This document shows, in pieces, positions 13,685-15,652 of a stretch of DNA of 64,000 nt. Below the pieces are notes generated by a model. That model was not told where the DNA came from, made no database searches, and worked only from the letters and a program-made list of their open reading frames with translations. The DNA is from Rhodobacterales bacterium (lineage in GTDB: Bacteria > Pseudomonadota > Alphaproteobacteria > Rhodobacterales > Rhodobacteraceae), in the NCBI GenBank assembly GCA_002746935.1, contig PDRW01000029.1, positions 1-64,000 of the forward strand, in the 5' to 3' direction. A program made the position numbers and the translations under genes. Position 1 is the first letter of the stretch, and each line of letters begins with the position of its first letter.

Positions 13685-15652
13685 ATGTTAAGGCCGGAGG
13701 ATTCGCCCATGCCCGACACGCCCCGGACCCCGGTTACACAGCCCCTGCCGCCCCTGCCACCCCGGGCGCCCAAGCTCGAAGGCGGCAAGCGTTTCGTGAT
13801 GCACAGCGAGTTCGAGCCTTCGGGCGACCAGCCCAGCGCGATCGCCGAGCTTTCGGCCGCGATCGAGGCGGGCGAGCGCGATCAGGTGCTGCTCGGCGCC
13901 ACCGGCACCGGCAAGACCTACACCATGGCCAAGGTCATCGAGACGACCCAGCGCCCGGCGCTCATCCTCGCCCCCAACAAGACCCTCGCCGCCCAGCTTT
14001 ACGGCGAGATGGCGCATTTCTTCCCGGAAAACGCCGTTGAGTATTTTGTAAGCTATTATGATTACTATCAGCCCGAGGCCTATGTGCCGCGCACCGACAC
14101 GTTCATCGAGAAGGAAAGCCAGATCAACGAGCAGATCGACCGGATGCGCCATTCGGCCACCCGGGCGCTGCTTGAGCGCGACGATGTGGTGATCGTCGCC
14201 TCGGTGTCGTGCATCTACGGCATCGGCAGCCCCGAGACCTATACCGCGATGCGGCAGGATCTCGAGGTCGGCAAGGACTATGACCAGCGCGCGGTGATGA
14301 GCGATCTGATCGCCCAGCAATACAAGCGCAACGACAATGCCTTCCAGCGCGGCACCTTCCGGGTGCGCGGCGACTCGCTGGAAATCTGGCCCTCGCATCT
14401 TGAAGACCGGGGCTGGCGGCTGTCGTTCTTCGGTGAGGAACTGGAGGGGATCACCGAGTTTGACACGCTCACCGGCGCGCGCACCGACAGGCTCGACAAG
14501 GTGCGCGTCTATGCCAATTCGCATTACGTCACCCCGACGCCCACGCTCAAACAGGCGATGAAGGGCATCAGGGAGGAGCTGACGCTGCGGCTCGCGGAGT
14601 TTGAAAAGGAGGGCAAGCTGCTCGAAGCCCAGCGGCTGGAACAGCGCACCCGGTTCGACCTCGAAATGCTGGAGGCCACCGGCCATTGCAACGGGATGCG
14701 GCCGCAAAGCGTGTTCGTTTCGGCCACGCCGGGGGCATGGGAGCTCGAACGCACCGGCGGGGTGTTCACCGAACAGGTGATCCGCCCCACGGGCCTGCTG
14801 GATCCGCAGATCGAGATCCGTCCGGTCGAGATGCAGGTGGACGATCTGCTCGACGAGGTCCGCGCCCAGGCCGCCGACGGCTTCCGCACCCTCGTTACCA
14901 CGCTCACCAAGCGCATGGCCGAAGACCTCACCGAATACATGCACGAACAGGGCATCCGGGTGCGCTACATGCATTCCGACATCGACACGATCGAACGCAT
15001 CGAGATCCTGCGCGATCTGCGGCTGGGCGCGTTTGACGTGCTGGTGGGCATCAACCTGCTGCGCGAGGGGCTGGACATTCCCGAATGCCGCCTTGTGGCG
15101 ATCCTCGACGCCGACAAGGAGGGCTTCCTGCGCTCCGAAACCTCGCTGATCCAGACCATCGGCCGGGCGGCGCGCAATGCCGAAGGCAAGGTCATCATGT
15201 ATGCCGACCGGATCACCGGCTCGATGGAGCGCGCCTTGGCCGAGACCGAACGCCGCCGCGCCCGGCAGATGGCCTATAACGAAAAGCACGGTATCACCCC
15301 GGAGACGGTGAAGAAGAACGTCGAAGACGTGCTCGCCGGCCTCTATGAGGGCGATGTCGACATGAACCGGGTGACGGCCAAGGTCGACAAGGCGGAGGTC
15401 GGCGGCAATCTCGCGGCACATCTCGACGGGCTGCGCGCCGACATGCGCAAGGCCGCGGAGAACCTCGAGTTTGAAGAGGCCGCACGGCTGCGCGACGAGA
15501 TCCACCGGCTCGAAGCCGTGGAGCTTGCGGTGGCCGACGACCCGCTGGCGCGGCAATCGGCGGTGGAAGCGGCGAGCGCGCCGAAGGCAAAGGGCCGGTC
15601 GACGGCGGGACGGCCGGGGCAACGGGCCGGGCGGCGCAAGCGGAAGGGCTGA
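13685..15652 (+). CDS. uvrB: UvrB excinuclease subunit with an internal deletion removing the DESH motif
   Basis: UvrB is the damage-verifying helicase of nucleotide excision repair. Present here: Walker [10 protein letters not shown] (71-79), the beta-hairpin [26 protein letters not shown], helicase motifs [31 protein letters not shown] and QTIGRAARN, and a C-terminal UVR segment ([13 protein letters not shown]). The read goes straight from ATGHCNG to [12 protein letters not shown] at residues 337/338 (nt 14695/14696). Every full UvrB has about 80 residues there, containing YSR..[11 protein letters not shown], the Walker B box DESH and GGMYxGD. The protein is 655 aa, about 80 shorter than expected, with the frame kept. 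Without DESH it should not hydrolyse ATP. The ATG at 13685 follows AAAAAGGGACC. Real mutation or assembly collapse cannot be told apart here. Confidence 0.9.

Follow-up and report, generated by a model that had tools for sequence, protein, structure and literature searches.

The uvrB gene in the 64,000-nt stretch of DNA analysed here (hereafter, the window) encodes a protein in which motif II DExH (Walker B) is absent, and the question is whether the bacterium itself or only its draft genome sequence has lost this part of UvrB. The first-pass annotation had described an in-frame loss of about 80 codons, including the DESH box, at residues 337/338 of a 655-aa product. Comparison with the relatives G001, G004, and G006 bears out this loss and puts its size at exactly 237 nt, or 79 codons, lost in frame at 14695/14696 (Table 1). 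In the alignment with related UvrB proteins that had been proposed as a check, G004 and G006 have 79 codons (237 nt) at the site of the gap in a segment ending FEEWDA, and G001 has 237 nt there too; all three genomes belong to the same genus as the source. The earlier length and position are consistent with a start at an alternative in-frame ATG at 13685; counted from the ATG at 13709, which is used here, the product is 647 aa, and the join lies at 329/330. At the join, GGG (14693-14695) is followed by ATG (14696-14698), and the frame is open across it. The segments in G001, G004, and G006 share a 3-nt homology (GAT) with the flanks of the gap, and the join slides over 14695-14697.

By score and by all of its retained conserved columns, the gene is the same as bacterial uvrB, from which it differs by the absence of the 79 codons with motif II (DESH). 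The product matched TIGR00631 with 843 bits (cut-off, 750) and NF003673 with 882 bits (cut-off, 743), passing both curated UvrB equivalog cut-offs, in two stretches each. Using phmmer, UvrB residues 28-340 and 333-603 were aligned with residues 4-316 and 388-656, respectively, of 2fdc; as read from this alignment, residues 306-384 (2fdc numbering), including the DESH box, are absent. Walker A, the hairpin, motifs III and VI, and the UVR domain are all kept; the names of motifs I, III, and VI and of the beta-hairpin segment are those that we take to belong to these positions. An AlphaFold model of the short UvrB, for which there was no full-length control, had a mean pLDDT of 63 and a pTM of 0.42 with low values at 323-330 and is too poor to be interpreted.

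Table 1. Features of uvrB in the window and genes with similar losses elsewhere in the same draft genome (G000)
Feature	Location	Strand	Observation or basis
uvrB as it stands, 647 aa + stop	13709..15652	+	TIGR00631 and NF003673 matches
Helicase motif I/Walker A GATGTGKT, kept	13895..13918	+	sequence; largely invariant columns
Beta-hairpin segment, kept	14054..14089	+	sequence; mostly invariant columns
Deletion junction GGG/ATG	14693..14698	+	comparison with G001, G004, and G006
Motif III SATPG, kept, directly past join	14720..14734	+	sequence; invariant V337-P341
Further conserved motif, kept	15152..15175	+	sequence; invariant columns
C-terminal UVR motif, kept	15425..15517	+	PF02151, residues 573-603
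uvrA, 917 aa	G000:C65:41751-44501 (L138:1483-4233)		without 39 codons, in frame
ettA	G000:C89 (L280:528-2042)		46 codons (138 nt) absent in frame, first P-loop included; versus G001 orthologue
Sugar ABC ATPase (RbsA/LsrA-like)	G000:C65:26692-28524 (L147)	-	first P-loop region gone, in frame
guaB	G000:C65 about 15861-17234 (L146)		out-of-frame loss after MEIREALTFDDVLL
SsuB-like ABC ATPase	G000:C63:174291-174512 (L281)	-	near contig end

The source genome is a draft of 2,807,716 bases in 94 contigs (83.9% complete; 1.47% contamination). A search of this incomplete draft returned a single uvrB and no second full copy, for which the first-pass annotation had advised looking. The missing piece was also sought using a 121-aa query comprising the segment of a relative and its flanks, and in the source genome, this query matched just the two flanks, apart from one further weak match on contig C48 (E 0.04; 28% identity). 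Other genomes with the same short UvrB were searched for using a 61-aa query that spans the junction (E 1e-18), and it was found in 1 of 394 family genomes, which is the source genome itself; UvrB was detected in 379 of these 394 genomes, where the genes seen are those among the matches listed. Among the same-genus genomes searched, the two halves of UvrB lie ~200 nt apart in G001, G004, and G006, as a full gene predicts, and the same spacing was present, in fragments, in G003; G002 (89% complete) and G005 (88% complete) gave no UvrB-like match. A literature search by title returned no report of this uvrB case.

To describe the state of the gene outside the gap, we aligned 106 UvrB frames from 109 loci of relatives (3 were dropped). 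At the 205 columns conserved in at least 97%, the UvrB in the window has 34 gaps, all of which sit at the join past residue 329, and no mismatches at the remaining 171; no other row has >20 gapped conserved columns. In a pseudogene test, uvrB had no stops or frameshifts and 0 of 171 conserved columns changed, in agreement with the earlier remark that the rest of the protein is without decay. In this family of proteins, the UvrB of locus L021 (genome G023) has DECH instead of DESH and SATPAAWEL instead of SATPGxWEL. Pairwise dN/dS was 0.12-0.17 for pairs that include the uvrB in the window versus 0.09-0.16 among relatives and was 0.13-0.15 for pairs that include uvrA of the same genome. The dN between this uvrB and same-genus genes was 0.077-0.087 versus 0.051-0.058 among G001, G004, and G006, and uvrA displayed no such excess. 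The slightly raised dN of uvrB would mildly favour relaxed constraint. The two flanks of the gap have 86.2 and 86.7% identity to G004 and GC3 values of 0.857 and 0.865, and the neighbours of both flanks match one and the same stretch of G001. A chimeric join of two loci was rejected, as the flanks come from one uvrB locus, and so, on the retained sequence, was repeat slippage: positions 14600-14800 contain a single 9-nt direct pair (89% alike), located away from the junction.

A comparable gap is present in uvrA, which reads TPIRDWF/FLPDVYV and is 117 nt short, in frame. A stretch of 39 codons containing RFSFNVKGGRCEAC/RFSFNVKGGRCEACQGDG fills this site in G001, G002, G004, and G005, and the missing part includes the first of the CxxC pairs in the C-terminal zinc module. 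The homology at the uvrA join is 1 nt (0 nt against G005), and a query across this junction again picked out just 1 genome among the 394 of the family, the source genome itself. Among equal-length windows of each gene ranked by DNA conservation (26 uvrB rows, with one gene present twice, and 5 uvrA rows), the segments lost from uvrB and uvrA are among the top 10% and top 3%, respectively, most conserved. The shared exact runs at the two joins are only mildly unusual, as 12-13% of positions have as much. Because the uvrA gap looked like a loss specific to nucleotide excision repair (NER), we surveyed other genes of the draft.

The first survey compared 462 kb of the source genome (contigs C41, C65 [1-240000], and C4 [1-80000]) with 2.14 of the 3.6 Mb of G001, and 168.5 kb of the former was aligned, with alignment gaps of 24-52 nt present in both genomes. 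Queries from G001 gave 98 best-hit orthologue pairs, in which the deletion in uvrB was the sole coding one of at least 30 nt with nearly abutting flanks, and such losses are therefore not very frequent; in the reverse direction, no such deletion was found in G001 among 105 pairs. An earlier pass with the frames of the source genome had given uvrB and one weak candidate, C4_15714, which was not counted among the losses, as was the case for C4:45742, C65:35351, and C65:104493. The event at C65:141469 was not counted either; it sits just ahead of a galT-like frame, presumably galT. The 462 kb checked contain no N characters.

In the second survey, we searched NCBIfam with 60 of the 75 large frames that lie outside the G001 alignment, and 31 of these 60 matched a family at the set limits; a looser rescan of ntrC and nine unmatched frames gave 3 of 10 matches. 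Three of the 31 matched frames, i.e., those for UvrA, GuaB, and a sugar ABC ATPase, were without a conserved segment. Partial profile matches were also obtained for, e.g., RNase E, CheA, CydC, GltX, and NtrC. Of these, gltX was rejected as a loss because it aligns broadly along known structures, and ntrC was rejected because the same stretch is presumably missing from Rhodobacter NtrC as well. The CydC partial match was not counted after inspection; CydC (G000:C4:28423-30864; L163:8423-10864) has a long tandem-repeat insert, built of units like AQTPAVNVNASDPGV, that separates its membrane part from its ABC part, and G001 is ~729 nt shorter between the flanking matches. In the third survey, a search of the genome with the PF00005 profile gave 74 matches, 69 of which cover at least 130 of the 137 positions. 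The five partial matches were the sugar ATPase, EttA, an SsuB-like protein, one on C50 that was rejected as a contig end, and an ABC protein at C4:97825 that was rejected as merely divergent.

Altogether, we count five clear losses and one probable loss in the source genome, of which four are in frame and two are not. The gene on C89, which we take to be ettA, has a join homology of 0 nt as read from the alignment with G001. The sugar ABC ATPase reads VLRGIDFDIH/IEVSGEAQSYSRPSEAHAKGIYMVPQEPQ, where the border is approximate as there is no close orthologue for comparison. GuaB runs to MEIREALTFDDVLL, after which a different frame takes over at FPLLAAAMDTVTEARM; based on an alignment with 4fxs and on what we assume to be the typical GuaB N-terminus, guaB is ~73 nt short, and no second guaB was found in the portion of the genome searched. 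In the SsuB-like gene, which with less certainty is probably broken too, the frame shifts within repetitive, G-rich sequence ahead of the second half. At one third each, ~2 of 6 losses are expected to be in frame, and the chance of at least 4 of 6 is about 0.10; in-frame losses are more readily detected. Measured against relatives, the joins in uvrB, uvrA, and ettA are nearly blunt with 0-3 nt of homology, and these genes otherwise look healthy.

An artefact should affect unrelated genes of this draft in a comparable way, and such losses were found in uvrA, ettA, the sugar ABC ATPase, and guaB. Because abrupt losses affect several unrelated genes, the gap in uvrB most likely reflects a fault in the draft sequence and not a biological feature. 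The draft has this gap, the gap is unique in our sample, and similar gaps interrupt unrelated conserved genes; we infer one technical cause behind all of them. The organism would then have an ordinary full-length uvrB, and the 237-nt DESH segment would have dropped out of the draft while it was being assembled or afterwards processed, through a mechanism that removes conserved segments and leaves their flanks joined almost bluntly. As a guess at its form, reads at conserved segments may have mapped ambiguously and caused unresolved gaps or N runs that were removed, and stripped gaps or N runs would give blunt joins. Nearly blunt joins in intact surroundings, the break at the start of guaB, and the fragmented state of the draft fit technical loss better than biology. 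Several observations go against it: an assembler should not join sequences at an overlap of 0-3 nt; the missing uvrB piece was found on no other contig; four of the six losses are in frame; losses of this type are not very frequent among the orthologue pairs; the exact runs shared at the joins are only mildly unusual; and the dN of uvrB is slightly raised. The first-pass annotation had named a repair-deficient allele, an unusual UvrB, and an assembly deletion side by side; the last is favoured by the losses in uvrA, ettA, the sugar ABC ATPase, and guaB together with an undecayed uvrB.

We consider it unlikely that the deletion is real and very recent, in which case the bacterium would have an ATPase-dead uvrB, a uvrA in which half of the C-terminal zinc module is missing, and no NER. 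That both flanks belong to one uvrB locus (by neighbours in G001, identity to G004, and GC3) and that uvrB pairs have a slightly raised dN are in line with this reading, as is the finding that two NER genes are affected while uvrC and mfd each match their family in one piece, which uvrA does not. Moreover, the DExH motif is among the residues lost, and its E339 is presumed to activate the attacking water, according to an excerpt of PMC6750098; if the gap is real, the short UvrB would presumably have no ATPase activity. Loss of NER by gene degradation is known from vesicomyid clam symbionts (PMC5310779, in excerpt). However, the similar losses in guaB, ettA, and the sugar ABC ATPase imply that the loss is not NER-specific, the idea first suggested by uvrA. 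The conserved UvrB columns outside the gap are unchanged, and a real loss would therefore have to be very recent, while the uvrB and uvrA junctions are present in no other sampled family genome. If the losses were real in all genes, they would mean that this bacterium, a relative of Rhodobacteraceae, has abruptly begun to excise conserved motif-bearing segments bluntly from a large number of genes (uvrA, uvrB, ettA, guaB, and ABC ATPases) with frames mostly intact and no other decay, which we regard as very unlikely.

Two further readings were weighed against a defect of assembly or processing. Chimeras formed by whole-genome amplification of single-cell or low-input DNA at poorly covered places join segments, often at short homologies, with an intervening deletion (PMC1855051, in excerpt), and the draft is incomplete; yet, in the same excerpt, 406 of 475 chimeras were inversions, and only 11 of 475 joined segments <10 kb apart in direct orientation, whereas the joins in this draft are short and direct and, where measured, almost devoid of homology. 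As there is also no sign that the source genome was amplified, such an origin is very unlikely. Finally, a short UvrB and a short UvrA could function as an ATPase-free damage-binding pair, since both frames are intact and the remaining UvrB columns are conserved. This idea is barely credible: activation of the hydrolytic water is attributed to the glutamate of DExH (PMC6750098, in excerpt), the Walker A K45A mutant cannot form the pre-incision complex (PMC7835731, in excerpt), the same type of loss is out of frame in guaB, no other sampled family genome has the junction, and the structure model, which had no full-length control, is poor.

Were the gap real, the source genome would represent a repair-deficient environmental lineage. 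With a sequence defect as the preferred reading, the draft is probably without conserved motif segments in several genes, and because frames often stay open, annotation can pass over the missing segments; claims of missing Walker motifs or of repair deficiency that are made from such drafts need reads. Among known systems, the uvrB genes of vesicomyid clam symbionts have likewise lost segments by deletion, as excerpted from PMC5310779. According to this excerpt, they have collapsed frames and stops in a genome-reducing lineage, with deletion patterns that vary among symbionts, whereas the uvrB described here, from a draft genome, is intact apart from a single clean join. Another parallel is the UvrB encoded at 5969-7867 of JABXKU010000089.1 (L042), a Desulfuromonadales metagenome-assembled genome, which has also lost a conserved part of the middle of UvrB abruptly and in frame. 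Unlike the UvrB in the window, this protein keeps DESH and lacks the stretch from FRLPS to SATPG, and the UvrA of its genome is whole; as one case, from which no rate follows, it hints that other genomes assembled from metagenomes have losses of this type as well.
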